Below, in pieces: positions 31,284 to 36,915 of a stretch of DNA of 38,397 nt (positions are counted from its first letter, which is position 1; the number at the start of each line of letters is the position of its first letter). Location: the NCBI GenBank assembly GCA_004297075.1, contig SCVK01000414.1:1-38397 (forward strand), written 5' to 3'. Origin of the DNA: Chitinophagaceae bacterium. Lineage in GTDB: Bacteria; Bacteroidota; Bacteroidia; Chitinophagales; Chitinophagaceae. The notes under the pieces are model-generated. The model made no database searches, had not been told where the DNA came from, and saw nothing but the letters and a program-made list of their open reading frames with translations. The translations under genes were made by a program, and so were the position numbers.

Positions 31284-31457
31284 TTTGCGAATAACGGATT
31301 AGCGGATGGCGGATTAAGGGCCGATCTCTGCGTAAACTCCCTGTTCTCTCGTTCTCTGCGGTGAATAGATCTCACTTTCACCGCAGAGACGCAGAGAGGC
31401 AGAAGTTTCGCAGAGAAAGAATCCGCAAATCCGTCATTCACGAATCCGCTAATCGTT
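31284..31457. repeat. Large imperfect palindrome filling the MATE-CorA gap
   Basis: The whole 179-base gap between the convergent genes is palindromic. The inner arms pair TCTCTGCGGTGAA (about 31353-31365) with TTCACCGCAGAGA (31377-31389). Next are CTCTGCG/CGCAGAG words, and the outer arms pair GGATTTGCG- and CGGATT-type words (31281-31315) with AATCCG words (31420-31454). The right inner arm resembles that of the 20875-20994 palindrome. It may act as a bidirectional terminator, but is far larger than one. Confidence 0.75.
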
Positions 31458-31460
31458 CCC

Positions 31461-32558
31461 CTAAAACCATCCTCTCCTGCGGAACACAAACACCATCCAC
31501 ACCGGTACCACCAGCATCAACCCCACCGCAATAAAAAATCCATATTGATGGTGCAGGTAAGGTATTCGGTCGAAGTTCATACCGAAAATACCACCGATGA
31601 CCGTGGCGGGGGCCAGTAAACAGGTTACTACGGCCATTACTTTCATGACCTCATTCATCTTCAGGTTTACATTACTGAGGTAGAGATCCTGCAGGTTCAT
31701 CATCATATCACGGTAGTTCTCTGCGAGATCATTGGCCTGTAGAATATGGTCGTAAATATCTTTGAAATATTTGATGGTGCGCTCTTCGAGCAGTTCGCTG
31801 TCGCTGCGGATAAACCCATTAATGAGTTCCCTCACCGGACTCACATTTCGTTTTAACACGATCAACTCCTTACGCAGGTTATTGATCTCGGCCAGTGCGC
31901 GGGTATTGCTGCTGCGGATGATCTTTTCTTCGAGCAGTTCAATATGTTCGCTCAGTTTCTCCATCACCACATAATAATTGTCTACGATCATATCGAGCAA
32001 TGCATAACAGAGATAATCGGCACCGCTGATGCGGAGTTTACTATTATTGACCCGCAACTTCTCCCGAATGGGATCAAACACATCCCTGCGGGCATCTTCC
32101 TGAAAAGAAAGCACAAAATCTCTACCGAGTATGATACTGATCTGCTCCGTTTCTACCGCACCGGTACGGTCGTTAAAGTACAGCATATTCAACAGACAGG
32201 AAAGTACGGGATCCAGGTCGTCCATCTTGGGACGTTGGCTAACGCTCAGGATATCTTCCTGTATCAGTACATGTATATTAAAATAGTTGCAAACTTTTTC
32301 TACATCCGCTTTACGGATCCCGTCAATATTGATCCAGGTGGTGTGATGATTGTCTTTAAACGGAAAACAATCCGTAATACTGGTAAAAGATTGCTCATGC
32401 AGATGCGCCGGTGAATAATCGAACACACTAACGCTGATCTCCTGCGCTTCCTCCCGCTTGGGCACCACCGTCGGGTTCACCTGGAAAATATCCCTGGTAC
32501 GCCGGGTATTGAATAAAGAAGATACTTTGAAGTATTTCAGGTATTTATTTTCTGGCAT
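31461..32558 (-). CDS. corA: CorA-type magnesium/cobalt channel
   Basis: 365 residues from the ATG at 32558 (MPENKYLKYF); the frame runs on to 32627 only through palindromic DNA. A large soluble N-terminal domain (TWINIDGIRKADVEKVCNYF, LSVSQRPKMDDLD) is followed by long helices. The C-terminal pair of membrane segments begins VMAVVTCLLAPATVIGGIFGMNF and contains the defining GMN selectivity motif; the basic tail is FVFRRRGWF. It forms a homopentameric Mg2+/Co2+ channel in the inner membrane. A TACCTTCA box just upstream of the start is -7-like. It is divergent from the YheT-like gene across a palindromic spacer. Confidence 0.94.
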   Translation of the reverse strand: MPENKYLKYFKVSSLFNTRRTRDIFQVNPTVVPKREEAQEISVSVFDYSPAHLHEQSFTSITDCFPFKDNHHTTWINIDGIRKADVEKVCNYFNIHVLIQEDILSVSQRPKMDDLDPVLSCLLNMLYFNDRTGAVETEQISIILGRDFVLSFQEDARRDVFDPIREKLRVNNSKLRISGADYLCYALLDMIVDNYYVVMEKLSEHIELLEEKIIRSSNTRALAEINNLRKELIVLKRNVSPVRELINGFIRSDSELLEERTIKYFKDIYDHILQANDLAENYRDMMMNLQDLYLSNVNLKMNEVMKVMAVVTCLLAPATVIGGIFGMNFDRIPYLHHQYGFFIAVGLMLVVPVWMVFVFRRRGWF

Positions 32559-32580
32559 GATTTGAAGGTACGATATTCTT

Positions 32581-32719
32581 AATGAGTGAATGATAGCATG
32601 ATAGAATGATAGGATGGGGAAAAACAATGGGGGAATACAGGTATCTAATATACCCTATTCTTTCAGTGAATACCGCTCAAAACATTCTATCATCCTATCA
32701 TTCACTCATTCTATCATTG
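32581..32719. repeat. Imperfect palindrome of ATGATAG/CTATCAT words between corA and the YheT-like gene
   Basis: The 16 bases AATGAGTGAATGATAG at 32581-32596 are exactly complementary to 32695-32710. The rest of both arms (to 32616, and 32682-32719) is made of reiterated ATGATAG/CTATCAT words in different registers. A 65-base centre contains a smaller GGTAT/ATACC dyad. The element lies between two divergent starts, so it overlaps both promoter regions. Confidence 0.75.
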
Positions 32720-32734
32720 ATTTACCTTCGCCCC

Positions 32735-33739
32735 ATGCCCATCCTTCCGCAACCACAATTCAAAGCGCCGTTCTGGCAATACAATGGTCATCTGCAGACG
32801 ATTGTTCCGAGCCTGTTCCGTAAAGTGGATTTCCGTTACCAGGAAAGAGAAAGACTGGAACTGCCGGACGGGGATTTTGTGGATCTGGATTGGCACAGGA
32901 CCGGGAGTAAAAAACTGGTGATCATTACCCACGGACTGGAGGGTGATTCCGGGAGGCATTATGTGCTGGGTATGGCTAAATTATTTGCACAGAATGGTTT
33001 CGACGCGCTGGGCTGGAACTGCCGCAGCTGTAGTGGCGAGATGAACCGCCTGCCCCGGTTTTACCACCATGGAGATGCAGGTGATCTGCGGCTGGTCATT
33101 GCTTATTCGATCCGGCAATATGGTTATGAAGAAATTATACTGGTGGGCTTCAGCATGGGTGGCAGTTTAAGCTTACGGGCAGTAGCCGAGTTTCCGGAGG
33201 AAGTGCCGGAACAGGTAAAGAAAGTAATTGGCTTTTCCGTTCCCTGCGATCTGGTGAGTAGTGTGAAGATCCTCTCACAATCAACCAATACTATTTACAG
33301 TTCACGTTTCCTGCGTAAGCTCGGTGAGAAAATCAAGGCCAAAGAAGAAATATTCCCGGAGCAGATCAGTTATGCGGGGTATGAAAAGATCAAACACTTT
33401 GCAGACTTCGACAACCGCTATACGGCTCCCTTACACGGTTTTGCAGATGCTTTTGATTTTTACACTAAGGCCAGTGTAAAACCTTTACTCACAAACATCC
33501 GGATTCCTTCTTTGATTGTGCAGGCCAAAAACGATTCGTTTTTAACACCCGAATGTATGTGCGAAGAGATCATTGCTCCCCATCCCTACCTGTTCCTGGA
33601 AACACCAGCGCAGGGTGGTCACTGTGGTTTTATGCAACAGGGTTCTGCAGTCAGTTGGGCCGAATTAAGGGCGCTCAGCTGGGCTATTAGTGGTCGGGAC
33701 GCTCAAAGCGGCCTGACCACTAATAGCCCGAGTTCATAA
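32735..33739 (+). CDS. YheT-like alpha/beta hydrolase with REP-derived C-terminal tail
   Basis: 334 residues from the ATG at 32735; the frame opens at 32606 only within the palindrome. Fold marks: HGLEGDSGRHYVLGMAKLF (oxyanion region), nucleophile Ser140 in VGFSMGGSLSLRA, the acid Asp in QAKNDSFLTPE, and the catalytic His in GGHCGFM. This is the YheT/ABHD1-3 group of serine hydrolases, likely cytoplasmic esterases or lipases of unknown natural substrate. A TACCTTCGC box ends only 3 bases before the ATG, suggesting a very short or absent mRNA leader. The last 15 or so residues (from SGRDAQSGL onward) are encoded by a REP palindrome at 33681-33729 and are not part of the fold. Confidence 0.9.
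   Translation: MPILPQPQFKAPFWQYNGHLQTIVPSLFRKVDFRYQERERLELPDGDFVDLDWHRTGSKKLVIITHGLEGDSGRHYVLGMAKLFAQNGFDALGWNCRSCSGEMNRLPRFYHHGDAGDLRLVIAYSIRQYGYEEIILVGFSMGGSLSLRAVAEFPEEVPEQVKKVIGFSVPCDLVSSVKILSQSTNTIYSSRFLRKLGEKIKAKEEIFPEQISYAGYEKIKHFADFDNRYTAPLHGFADAFDFYTKASVKPLLTNIRIPSLIVQAKNDSFLTPECMCEEIIAPHPYLFLETPAQGGHCGFMQQGSAVSWAELRALSWAISGRDAQSGLTTNSPSS
33681..33729. repeat. REP palindrome, copy A (3' end of YheT-like gene)
   Basis: Perfect 15-bp outer arms (GGGCTATTAGTGGTC at 33681-33695; complement at 33715-33729) enclose a core that folds imperfectly: GGTCGGGACGCT, loop CAA, AGCGGCCTGACC. The same core occurs at 34038-34064 and, inverted, at 34550-34575. It forms the last codons of the hydrolase gene. 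Confidence 0.88.
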
Positions 33740-33800
33740 TGAAAACTTACCGCCCATCTCACCACAAACCAACCACTGTTAACCCGGTTCGTTCAGCCTC

Positions 33801-34412
33801 TTACCAAATCTTTTTTAACATCTCCTCATCCAACACCCCATAACTATCCGCATAAAATGAGAATGACCCATACCCCGAAAGGGCCCATAACAATTTCTCA
33901 TTACAAATCAAAAAATGATCAGCCCCTGTTAATTGCCTGAAAGAAGAATAAGGCCAATCTTCCAGTTTTTTAACAAGATTTGCTTTTACCGGATTTTGAT
34001 GAATGTAATGCATGCAGGTAATAAGATAGCTCCAGGGGGTCGGGACGCTCAAAGCGGCCTGACCACTAACACACTTAGCCTTCGTCTTTTGCTGAAATAA
34101 CGAACCAGTTGTACCATTTTGTTTATTAATAGCCTGCGAGTAACTGCTAAGCAACATCCCCAGTTGATAAGAAAATTCCTGCATAGGTTTACCGCCAAAA
34201 GAAGGTCTTTCTGCACAGCCATTCGCTGTAGCCATCACCAGTAAATGAAAATGATTAGGCATCAGGCACCAACACAACATTTCGCAGGCAGGAGAAAGCT
34301 GTTTGTGGATTTTCTGCAAGAAAAACGCATAGTTTTTATCGCTGAAAAATATCCTTTGCTGGTTATTACCCCGATTATAGATATGATACACTTCTCCTGG
34401 AATATAATGCAT
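33801..34412 (-). CDS. REP-associated tyrosine transposase (RAYT, Y1/HUH family)
   Basis: 203 residues of the single-domain Y1 transposase family related to IS200/IS605 TnpA. The HUH metal motif is His54-Phe-His56 in MPNHFHLLVM. The N-terminus GEVYHIYNRGNNQQRIFF is the RAYT start pattern. A candidate catalytic tyrosine is Tyr136 in MHYIHQNPVKANLV, followed by EDWPYSSFR. RAYTs are single-copy genes thought to mobilise REP palindromes by cutting single-stranded DNA. Here copies of one palindrome lie on both sides (33681 and 34539). A third is within the gene, in frame, encoding residues about 116-126 (SGQAALSVPT) in the linker before the tyrosine helix. The frame stays open and all motifs remain, but activity of this form is uncertain. 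No tnpB is present. Confidence 0.9.
   Translation of the reverse strand: MHYIPGEVYHIYNRGNNQQRIFFSDKNYAFFLQKIHKQLSPACEMLCWCLMPNHFHLLVMATANGCAERPSFGGKPMQEFSYQLGMLLSSYSQAINKQNGTTGSLFQQKTKAKCVSGQAALSVPTPWSYLITCMHYIHQNPVKANLVKKLEDWPYSSFRQLTGADHFLICNEKLLWALSGYGSFSFYADSYGVLDEEMLKKIW
34038..34068. repeat. REP palindrome, copy B (inside the RAYT gene)
   Basis: The core GGTCGGGACGCT, loop, AGCGGCCTGACC is identical to copy A, and its right flank CACTAA also matches A. The left flank does not, so one outer arm is missing or diverged. It lies in frame within the transposase coding sequence. Confidence 0.88.
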
Positions 34413-34538
34413 ATGGCAGCCTTTGCCATTCGGGCAGCTTCAACTGCCTGAATAGTGGTTTGGAATAGATGATATACATTCTGCTTACATCGGGGTTGTT
34501 ACCTGTAGGGTGTGTTACCACCGAATCAATTTGCGCCC

Positions 34539-34586
34539 CCGCCCTTAACGGTCAGGCCGCTTAAGCGTCCCGACCGTTAAGGGCGG
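34539..34586. repeat. REP palindrome, copy C (3' end of recQ, upstream of RAYT)
   Basis: Perfect 15-bp arms at 34539-34553 and 34572-34586 (CCGCCCTTAACGGTC and its complement). The core is the inverted form of copies A and B, with a shorter TA loop. The outer arms differ in sequence from copy A, although each is self-complementary. It contains the last codons and the stop of recQ (TAA at 34561-34563, minus strand). Confidence 0.88.
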
Positions 34587-36750
34587 CAATGGTCATGCGG
34601 ATCTCGCCATAGCTGATCTCTTCGGGCAAATGGTCTTTGATCTGCTTTAGACCCAGGCGCCCAAATTGATTGGCTGCCGCTTCAATCAATTCTCTTTTAT
34701 CCGCCGCTACCAATTCCTCCACGTCCAGATCGCCAATGGTGATATAATGACTGAGATGTGTTTCAACAGTGGTAAGCGACAGCTGCCGCTCTTCCGCGAT
34801 CTCTTTGACCGACTTACCGGAACGGAACATATCATAGCTGATCCGTTTGGTATCCGAAGCCCTTTCGCGCGGAGCACTGATTTTTCTGGCTCGCGGTGTT
34901 TTTTTCAGGTCGATGCGGGTGGGTATTTTGCGTTCGATGCAGTAATCCTGCACTTTCTCCAGAAAAGGCATACCATACCGTTCGGTTTTATACGCACCAA
35001 AACCAGTGATCTTCGGAAGATCTGTTTTTACCAATGGGAGATAAGTGGCCAGATCAAGCAGGGTACTGTCGCTGAAGATCAGGTAAGCCGGTACATTCTC
35101 TTCGTGTGCAATGCGATTACGCAGCTGCTTCAGCTCTTCGAACAGTTCTTTTTCGTAGGCATGCTGCTGATAGATCTCCGGTTCTTTGGCAATCACTACC
35201 TGCACCGGTGCAGATAAGTAAACTTTTTCTGCTTTGAATAATACCGCATTGCTTTTCTCCGCCAGTTTCAGCACAGGATACTCTCCCTCGCTTTGCTGCA
35301 GGTAACCATAATGCAATAGTTCTTTTACATAGTGCAGCCACTCTTCCTTTGGTTTGTCTTTTCCCACACCATACACCGATAGTTTTTTATGCTCCTCACG
35401 GATCTTCTCGCTGTTACTGCCTTTCATAATATCCACCACATAACGCATACCAAAACCCTGGTTCAGGCGGTAAACGGTACTGAGAATTTTCTGCGCAATA
35501 ATGGTACTGTCCTGTAGTTCAGGTTTACTCAAACAATTATCGCAACTACCACAATAGTCAGGAGCCTGTTCTCCAAAATAAGTCAGCAGGTATTTTCTGC
35601 GGCAGCCACGTGTTTCGCAGAGTTGTACCATCTGGTCCAGTTTCTTCAGCAGGATCTGTGTTTGTTCGGGATTGTTCTCTACCTGCGCAAACCCCTTCAG
35701 TTTCATCACATCACCTGCGCCATAAAACAGAATGGCTTCGCTATGTAAGCCATCGCGACCGGCACGGCCTGTTTCCTGGTAATAACCTTCTATATTTTTG
35801 GGCAGATCGGCATGTACCACAAAACGCACATTGCTTTTGTTGATGCCCATTCCAAAAGCAACTGTGGCCACCATAATCTTAATATCATCTTTCAGAAACA
35901 GATCCTGGCGTTCATCGCGGATGCTTTTGTCGAGACCGGCATGATAGGCCGCCGCACTATATCCATCCGCCTGCAGATCGGTGGCCAGGCTTTCGGTGGC
36001 CGCCCGGCTTAAACAGTAAATGATGCCGCTGTCTTCTTTGTGTTCTTCGAGATAATCTACCAATACATCGTAATAGCCTTTTTTGGGTTTGATATAATAG
36101 TAAATATTGGGTCGGTTAAAACTATTCTCAAATACCTGGTAATCGGTTACCCGTAACTGCTCAATGATATCTTTCCTCGTCAACGTATCCGCTGTTGCTG
36201 TCAGGGCAATGATGGGGATAGAAGGAAATTGCTGCTTCAGCTGGCTCAGTACGCGGTACTCGGGTCTGAAATCATGTCCCCACTGACTGATACAATGCGC
36301 TTCATCGATCGCAAACAAAGAAACCTTGATCTCTTTGAGAAAAGACAGGAACTGTACTTCGCCACCCACCAAACGCTCCGGCGCCACATAGAGCAGTTTT
36401 AATTCGTTGCGGCGCAATTGCTGCAGGATCGCTCCCTGCTCGCCACTGCTTTGGGTACTGTTCAGGAATGCGGCTTTTACGCCACTCAATACCAGTGCAT
36501 CTACCTGGTCCTTCATCAAGGCAATCAGTGGACTAACCACAATGGTTACACCGGGTAAACAAAGAGCGGGTACCTGGTAACAAAGGCTTTTACCTCCGCC
36601 GGTGGGCATCAGTACAATGGCATCTTTGCCCGATAGCAGGTGTTCAATAATGGCCGCCTGGTTATGCCTGAACTCGGTATAACCGAATACAGACTCCAGC
36701 ACATCGGCGGGTGTAGCTATTAATGGAGATCTCGCGTTGCCCTGTTTCAT
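34561..36750 (-). CDS. recQ: RecQ-family ATP-dependent DNA helicase
   Basis: 729 residues from the ATG at 36750 (an alternative ATG is at 36768). Helicase motifs, counted from 36750: 0 (FRHNQ), Walker A PTGGGKS ending at residue 55, DEAH at 149-152, SAT-type TATAD, motif V (VATVAFGMGINK) and motif VI (QETGRAGRDG). The zinc-binding region has four cysteines (RGCRRKYLL, YCGSCDNC). RQC winged helix and HRDC domains follow (ELKQLRNRIAHEENVPAYLIF), then a C-terminal helix-turn-helix region (SVKEIAEERQLSLTTVETHL). It unwinds recombination and fork intermediates 3'-5'. The last codons (NGRDA, stop) come from REP copy C, so the native terminus may have been slightly altered. Its start faces the C1 peptidase gene across 165 bases. 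Confidence 0.96.
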   Translation of the reverse strand: MKQGNARSPLIATPADVLESVFGYTEFRHNQAAIIEHLLSGKDAIVLMPTGGGKSLCYQVPALCLPGVTIVVSPLIALMKDQVDALVLSGVKAAFLNSTQSSGEQGAILQQLRRNELKLLYVAPERLVGGEVQFLSFLKEIKVSLFAIDEAHCISQWGHDFRPEYRVLSQLKQQFPSIPIIALTATADTLTRKDIIEQLRVTDYQVFENSFNRPNIYYYIKPKKGYYDVLVDYLEEHKEDSGIIYCLSRAATESLATDLQADGYSAAAYHAGLDKSIRDERQDLFLKDDIKIMVATVAFGMGINKSNVRFVVHADLPKNIEGYYQETGRAGRDGLHSEAILFYGAGDVMKLKGFAQVENNPEQTQILLKKLDQMVQLCETRGCRRKYLLTYFGEQAPDYCGSCDNCLSKPELQDSTIIAQKILSTVYRLNQGFGMRYVVDIMKGSNSEKIREEHKKLSVYGVGKDKPKEEWLHYVKELLHYGYLQQSEGEYPVLKLAEKSNAVLFKAEKVYLSAPVQVVIAKEPEIYQQHAYEKELFEELKQLRNRIAHEENVPAYLIFSDSTLLDLATYLPLVKTDLPKITGFGAYKTERYGMPFLEKVQDYCIERKIPTRIDLKKTPRARKISAPRERASDTKRISYDMFRSGKSVKEIAEERQLSLTTVETHLSHYITIGDLDVEELVAADKRELIEAAANQFGRLGLKQIKDHLPEEISYGEIRMTIAALNGRDA

Positions 36751-36915
36751 GAAACTGCAAGATAACAAGCAAATGATGCAAATGAATAAGCATTAATACG
36801 CTAAAAAAAGGGTGTTTTCCCCATTGCGGAAGCGGGATGGGTTTATTTTTTTTACATATCCATTGATCCAGGGAAGCAGTCAATCTCACTGCCGCCCGTA
36901 AACATCCGATATACA

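Follow-up and report, generated by a model that had tools for sequence, protein, structure and literature searches.

The locus

The subject of this report is a gene for a REP-associated tyrosine transposase (RAYT), together with the repetitive extragenic palindrome (REP) that surrounds and interrupts it, in a 38,397-nt stretch of DNA from a Chitinophagaceae bacterium (GCA_004297075.1, contig SCVK01000414.1, positions 1–38,397, forward strand). We refer to this whole stretch as the window. The assembly, labelled G000, comprises 4.07 Mb in 568 contigs and is 82.75% complete. How do copies of one short hairpin come to lie within long, perfect palindromes that differ from site to site? We propose, with a probability of about 0.7, that this is a RAYT/REP system whose outer arms arise by quasipalindrome template switching on the transposed REP hairpin, whereby flanking host DNA would be copied in inverse.

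The RAYT gene (33801–34412, minus strand) encodes 203 amino acids. It is placed between two convergent genes, an alpha/beta hydrolase gene (32606–33739, plus strand, with a predicted start codon) and recQ (34561–36768, minus strand). The palindromic core occurs three times, where a sequence-only reading of the window had located it: core A at 33692–33718 and core B at 34038–34064, both on the plus strand, and the inverted core C at 34550–34575, on the minus strand. An exact 11-mer of the core, GGTCGGGACGC, is present at these three sites only, so that reading was also correct in finding no further copy in the window. A and B are identical across 32 nt (33692–33723 and 34038–34069); the loop of C is one base shorter than theirs. 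Core A is in frame and encodes GRDAQSGLT close to the end of the hydrolase open reading frame (ORF), which continues through the hairpin. Core C gives recQ its last four residues, GRDA, plus its stop codon, the ORF ending inside the core. Core B (GQAALSVPT) is an in-frame insertion within the RAYT gene, which had aptly been described as invaded by the palindrome.

Outer arms of 11 nt flank both A and C; B is armless. As had been noticed, the arms of A and C differ in sequence and each pair is perfectly self-complementary. The left arm of A, GGGCTATTAGT (33681–33691, plus strand), is host hydrolase coding sequence and the right arm, ACTAATAGCCC (33719–33729, plus strand), is its inverted copy. 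In the sense of its core, the left arm of C, CCGCCCTTAAC (34576–34586, minus strand), is recQ coding sequence, while the right arm, GTTAAGGGCGG (34539–34549, minus strand), is the end of recQ inverted. The predicted folding energies, arms included, are −39.3 kcal/mol for A and −40.9 kcal/mol for C; the core of C alone yields −15.4 kcal/mol.

The RAYT protein matches the NCBIfam family REP_Tyr_transpos (NF047646) with an E value of 1.8e-16 and 60.4 bits, below the cut-off of 80. It has no Pfam match at 0.001. A profile made from three RAYT sequences matches E. coli TnpAREP (PDB 4er8) at E 7.2e-5. The ORF contains NHFH (residues 53–56) and YIHQNP (residues 136–141), and the NHFH and YIHxNP positions are common to the protein and two relatives, one of which has V instead of I. 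These motifs fit the HUH and Y motifs of a single-domain Y1 transposase, the identity originally assigned to the gene between the cores, and a catalytic role for them is predicted. The C-terminal part contains PYSSF (SS present). An AlphaFold model, made from three sequences only, has a mean pLDDT (predicted local distance difference test) of 54.5, too weak for fold comparison.

The core and its distribution

How widely is the core dispersed? Seven exact copies are present in the assembly itself, against none of a reversed control pattern. For a survey of the genus, a covariance model was built from ten core copies, searched against 147 same-genus genomes, and elements were kept at E values up to 1e-5. 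Six genomes carry them: G000 (21 rows), G033 (13), G082 (13), G130 (1), G155 (36) and G160 (10). The filters were strict, so weak copies may be missed, and some rows represent both strands of one site. We extracted 117 distinct copies from the loci of these six genomes and analysed the 103 with no more than four core mismatches, 14 being dropped; on recount, none of the 103 was counted on both strands. The set was partly picked by a covariance model that contains arm pairs, and is biased towards armed copies. A scan of contigs places the core, among the matches listed, also in other Chitinophagaceae and Bacteroidota metagenome-assembled genomes (MAGs).

The repeated unit is an imperfect hairpin of 26–27 nt, GGTCGGGRCGCT–loop–AGCGRCCTGAMC. 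A short variable foot flanks it, TANC on one side and GNTA on the other, and the N positions pair. For comparison, the left and right flanks of the 103 copies were re-paired at random in 1000 rounds. Positions −1 and +1 pair in 93 of the 103 copies, and −2 and +2 in 89 (permuted maxima 73 and 39, respectively); position +3 is T in 97. Where the arms are no longer than 4 nt (69 copies), pairing exceeds the permuted maximum up to position 2 only, save for a slight excess at position 12 (31, permuted maximum 30). Because pairing in the short-armed copies stops at position 2, we conclude that the element proper consists of the core and the short foot TANC/GNTA. This foot departs from the canonical GTAG.

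The element is often found at gene ends, and some copies are in frame in the linkers of proteins. By gene-position classes that rest on ORFs called by open length only, a gene 3′ end is touched by 48 of the 103 copies. Of these, 28 follow a sense stop codon by no more than 6 nt, 18 are in a sense ORF whose end falls inside the core or within 40 nt of it, and 2 are antisense; the other 55 copies lie elsewhere. The recQ gene of G155 also reads through a core, like that of the window. Since the left side is TAAC or TAGC in only 15 of the 103 copies, the gene-end location may reflect selection and not the targeting of stop codons. Neighbouring copies less than 130 bp apart are inverted in 19 of 21 pairs, 18 of these in one relative order; the inverted pairs are REPIN-like. 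The match to a REP-associated tyrosine transposase, the dispersed core, the gene-end sites and the inverted pairs together bear out the proposal that the RAYT has a REP family of its own.

Some arrangements of the core are unusual. In another Bacteroidota MAG (L306, JAKQJG010000222.1, positions 10–150) four cores stand in direct tandem with a 38-bp period, a CRISPR-like spacing, and copies are likewise closely spaced at L289 and L302. In G033, G000 and G155 (L022, L042 and L127) cores lie directly behind an intrinsic terminator, apparently of the same gene pair. At the G000 site the far side of the core mirrors the T run (GGTTTTTTT[core]AAAAAAACC). The window also has two other inverted repeats. 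A perfect 15-bp repeat with a 7-nt loop (GCAGAAAAGAGGCCG...) at 311–347 is unrelated to the REP core; an imperfect one at 31334–31408, with 32-nt arms that are 75% complementary, lies just past the 3′ end of the ORF at 31461–32627 (minus strand).

How closely does the core follow the RAYT gene? RAYT-like proteins occur in 16 of the 147 genomes. Close RAYTs are found in G000 (100% identity), G033 (78% over 111 residues) and G155 (67% over 198 residues), and all three genomes carry elements, as expected from the earlier claim that core and RAYT belong together. In G155 and G033 the gene comes after recQ, as in G000. The G155 gene contains a core at the same place as B, in the opposite orientation, and is flanked by core rows of its own (C83:925–974 and 1641–1690), as the RAYT of the window is by A and C. 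The tie is not complete, however: G160 (99% complete, 10 core rows) and G130 (1 row) have the core with no RAYT match. In G082, which is 56% complete, the RAYT matches are all weak. Twelve genomes with more distant RAYT-like genes (at most 43% identity, short fragments aside) lack the core (L011–L014, L016, L114–L124, L126). The simplest reading is a single RAYT lineage and its REP, with loss or decay in some members.

Arms beyond the foot

Are long arms a matter of chance? Perfect arms of at least 9 nt are present in 20 of the 103 copies, against a permuted mean of 0.2 and maximum of 3, and a chance origin is rejected on these figures. As background, arms of that length enclose a 26–27-nt spacer at 25 of 570,032 positions in the same loci. 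By genome, the long-armed copies number 7 of 16 in G000, 5 of 19 in G033, 1 of 17 in G082, 5 of 39 in G155, 2 of 11 in G160 and 0 of 1 in G130. Because the covariance model rewards arm pairs, samples chosen by the core only are of importance. Arms this long are carried there by 4 of the 7 exact copies of G000 and, among the matches listed, by 6 of 36 (30 loci) from the same group of genomes, these 36 overlapping the 103, and by 1 of 56 (50 loci, recognised by title) from other Bacteroidota.

The 20 long arms are all different, also when reverse complements are included. At position 1513 of L104 (G155) a 17-nt arm starts with GGTCGGGAG, which looks like a piece of a further core copied into the arm.

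Comparison with orthologous sites

If the arms are not part of a common consensus, where does their sequence come from? We compared gene ends with and without a core, looking in each case, within the 130 nt past the gene, for the longest exact match to its final 42 nt in inverted form. Gene identities were assigned by Pfam (MutS, the YchF C-terminal domain, LpxB, cytidylate kinase, a tyrosine recombinase and a YgaP-like membrane domain); the tyrosine recombinase gene is presumably xerD-like, and is so called here. In a tree of four proteins, G000, G070 and G091 group firmly (support 99), the only firm grouping among the genomes of interest; weak nodes are present (45, 53 and 41).

At six genes, recQ, the hydrolase, the xerD-like gene, ychF, mutS and lpxB, the aligned sequences identify one arm as native, made of codons, a stop codon or promoter sequence. 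By the same comparison the other arm is its inverted copy, absent from core-free relatives. The native side is in all six the 5′ flank of the core strand. At the xerD-like gene the inverted copy of the gene end measures 4–9 nt in the 14 core-free loci of the 18 compared. Cores are accompanied by right arms of 19 nt in G000, 10 nt in G033 and 10 nt in G160. The HPAF codons have diverged among these genomes, and every arm is the reverse complement of those in its own genome; the G155 arm is 6 nt. At ychF the 15 core-free loci of 18 have inverted copies of 5–7 nt, and in G000 an arm of 21 nt repeats in inverse the FNV codons, the stop codon and eight further bases. The other ychF arms are 5 nt (G033) and 4 nt (G155).

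At eight core-free recQ ends the longest inverted copy is 5–9 nt and none resembles the right arm of C, against 11 nt plus the core in G000; the match in G010 stops short of the gene end. The recQ arms are 11 nt in G155, copying the codons AHL, and 6 nt in G033. For A there is one comparison, G070, in which the inverted copy is absent and the left arm's position is occupied by the last hydrolase codons (SWAIS in G000, DWALH and stop in G070). In G070, as we read the sequence, the hydrolase and recQ genes adjoin, with 11 nt separating their stop codons (locus L072).

At lpxB the 5′ side is native GCGGTATTTTGCAG in the core-free sister genomes G010 and G088, with a near match in G070. Its inverted copy is found only in G000 and G033, each reproducing its own variant base, with a one-base bulge beside the core. 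The bulge adjoining the core at lpxB and the divergence of the core at ychF put both cases outside the counts of 103 and 20. A G155 gene ending VLN-stop has a 20-nt arm that copies the gene end with one mismatch; in its G082 counterpart the arm is 6 nt, or 8 with one mismatch. The signature of a template switch, a perfect inverted copy of the native flank that is absent without the event, is thus found at recQ, xerD, ychF and mutS, and at lpxB with the bulge. Of the 20 long-armed copies, seven have orthologue support (A, C, L005, L028, L030, L102 and L106).

What is the order of insertion and arm growth? The mutS linker contains a translated, in-frame, inverted core pair that is common to G000 and G082 and decayed in G160 (L189–L193), with doubtful remnants perhaps in G155 and G070. 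The arms of the distal REP are 2 bp in G082 and G160 and 11 bp (15 with one mismatch) in G000. Since the arms are this short in the relatives and long in G000, the simplest order is insertion first and growth of the arms later. The sequence-only reading had stated that pairing, not sequence, is conserved outside the core. This describes the arms correctly, but the orthologous sites indicate that the pairing arose by copying of the host flank and not by conservation of the element.

Origin of the arms

How might the arms be made? The RAYT would mobilise the REP core as single-stranded DNA, to judge by its family. At the inserted hairpin a nascent strand would stall and then fold back, the halves of the core pairing. 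Such a fold-back would place the 3′ end on the strand's own host flank, and extension there would write an inverted copy; when the extended strand returned to the normal template, perfect outer arms would result. Copies that leave the gene intact would survive. The outcome would be a long stem at the gene end, and any effect of this stem on termination or mRNA stability is hypothetical. It is from the sequences at the orthologous sites that we infer flank copying by replication fold-back. Spacer inversion would fit the opposite core orientations at two places, the site inside the RAYT gene and that near cmk. At the latter, cores lie upstream, near the gene start, with perfect arms of 17 nt in G000 (L039) and 13 nt in G160 (L109).

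Might the RAYT itself build the arms at insertion? The hairpin would be joined to the 3′ end of the target, its own 3′ end would prime synthesis on the flank, and a copy of variable length would be made before the second joining. The end product would be identical, the native side is predicted to be the 5′ flank of the core strand, as at the six best-supported genes, and the −2/+2 foot pairs in 89 of 103 copies would suit matching or copying of 2 nt or more on insertion. However, at mutS the insertion common to three genomes is armed by 2 bp in G082 and G160 but by 11 bp in G000, and most copies (69 of 103) have no arm longer than 4 nt. Moreover, G160 has arms of 10 and 13 nt with no RAYT match at 99% completeness, although later loss of the gene would explain this. 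We consider arm-building by the RAYT unlikely. Also unlikely, by our estimate, is a bolder claim: that insertion of a RAYT-mobilised hairpin includes a step in which it copies the target flank by self-priming, and so builds a palindrome of its own wherever it lands. If true, such copying would be a new outcome for an HUH transposase, an inverted duplication of the target flank instead of a direct target duplication.

A different possibility is that the core was inserted into the loop of a pre-existing hairpin or terminator. L001 and L110 resemble terminator stems, the pairs at L042, L022 and L127 sit directly behind an intrinsic terminator, and hairpins of their own are frequent at core-free gene ends. 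On the other hand, the arms at xerD, ychF, recQ, mutS and lpxB are codons, a stop codon or a promoter box, and the core-free xerD, ychF and recQ ends show no inverted gene-end copy longer than 9 nt. Insertion into existing hairpins is therefore rejected at these five genes, a rejection that does not extend to L110, L001 and the uncompared copies; it may explain other sites, and as the general origin of the arms it is improbable. We hold equally improbable that point mutation, with selection for a strong RNA or DNA hairpin, gave the arms by compensatory change. There are many hairpins at gene ends, the foot pairs covary, and the lpxB arms of G000 and G033 differ by one paired change; but perfect arms of 10–19 nt that track diverged codons across genomes would need many coordinated changes. 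Finally, the arms might belong to the mobile unit, which would imply many REP subfamilies, and passages of PMC3733652 do describe variable stems among REP subfamilies. Against this, the 20 long arms all differ, reverse complements included, and those compared match their own host gene. A single mobile unit with long arms is rejected, no long arm among the 20 being repeated at two unrelated loci, and we give the many-subfamilies version hardly any credence.

Several observations weigh against template switching on the hairpin. The order of events is read from one site, mutS, and arms may have been lost in the relatives. The ends of MutS (SGRDA...RVPT) and RecQ (NSRDK) in G070 resemble decayed elements; as an empty site G070 is imperfect, so that the comparison for A and C loses weight, unlike those at xerD and ychF, which are independent of it. 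As the relatives have only about 60–90% protein identity at these genes, the comparison sites are not identical DNA, and no event was seen within one population. For two of the 20 long-armed copies, L101 and L110, the comparison was undecided, and 11 are uncompared. At L101, the lpxB of G155, the arm is 16 nt and neither side is conserved. L110, beside the YgaP-like gene of G155, has the longest arm, 28 nt, yet it overlaps the coding sequence by only 7 nt (GAAATAA). This is the chance level, as seen in core-free G087 (7 nt), and other loci carry terminators of their own; the core at L110 could have entered an older terminator. The core-free xerD ends of G066, G087 and G091 have different hairpins at or after the stop codon. 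The opposite core orientations at the RAYT-internal site and near cmk may be independent insertions. As arms reach 9 nt in only 1 of the 56 copies from other Bacteroidota, arm growth is not general for the core.

The direction of copying calls for similar caution. The native arm is recognised by its conservation, and direction is therefore inseparable from selection; the bias towards the 5′ flank may itself be selection, many cores having that flank towards a gene. L023, which has a 9-nt arm, lies outside the orthologue comparison and touches a coding end on its right. Because L023 and L110 may run the opposite way, we claim no strand rule.

Relation to known systems

RAYT/REP systems, in-frame insertion and template switching are each already known; the new point is the site-specific copied arms. 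In passages of PMC3733652, REPs are described near gene 3′ ends, giving stop codons or inserted in ORFs, and also inside larger palindromes of one consensus. Recognition of GTAG by TnpAREP is described in PMC8266576. In the open-licence literature we found no report of REPs gaining inverted flank copies or seeding site-specific palindromes. If template switching is indeed responsible, these loci preserve a natural record of how short mobile hairpins act as seeds from which host DNA is built into longer palindromes, and orthologous sites are available for comparison. They would bear on the origin of long stems and variable REP arms, on how pairing in the stem survives a change of codons, and on the degree to which transposed hairpins increase template switching nearby. 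Every site could act as a reporter, which makes the question directly testable.

Like a TnpAREP/RAYT REPtron, the present system combines an HUH gene with a single dispersed hairpin whose copies surround it, form inverted pairs and frequently lie at gene ends. By motif, the RAYT comes closest to a Bacteroidetes group, subclass 2.6 (RAYT group 5); the relevant passages of PMC6006769 describe the structures that flank this subclass as atypical and devoid of GT[AG]G. The RAYT has the YIH[QN]NP Y motif of that subclass (here YIHQNP), the C-terminal SS, the Bacteroidota host and the lack of a GT[AG]G foot. The HUH motif differs, being NHFH here and NH[LIV]H there, in a comparison made by motif and not by profile. 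In-frame REPs within tnpAREP genes are reported in the same source for subclass 2.4. What sets our system apart from subclass 2.6 and the REPtron, as they appear in those passages, is the long, site-specific outer arms copied from host flank, and the case may resolve one of the atypical structures.

The likeness to quasipalindrome template switching is of another kind. Parts of PMC8794818 describe how switching at inverted repeats can create perfect hairpins, and parts of PMC8604942 how it homogenises arms and inverts spacers; here, too, one arm becomes the perfect inverted copy of the other. The difference is that a transposed REP hairpin would seed many sites of one genome, and that the arms would grow outward into unrelated host sequence. 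Two further systems are treated in the passages of PMC3733652. The Rickettsia palindromic elements resemble ours in lying in frame within coding genes (here mutS and the RAYT gene), but their sequence is another and here the long arms are unique to each site. In the GTAG-15 and GTAG-23 REPs of A. variabilis and T. roseum the REP is likewise centred in a longer palindrome. Theirs has one outer consensus, whereas the 20 long arms here all differ, and those compared copy the neighbouring gene.

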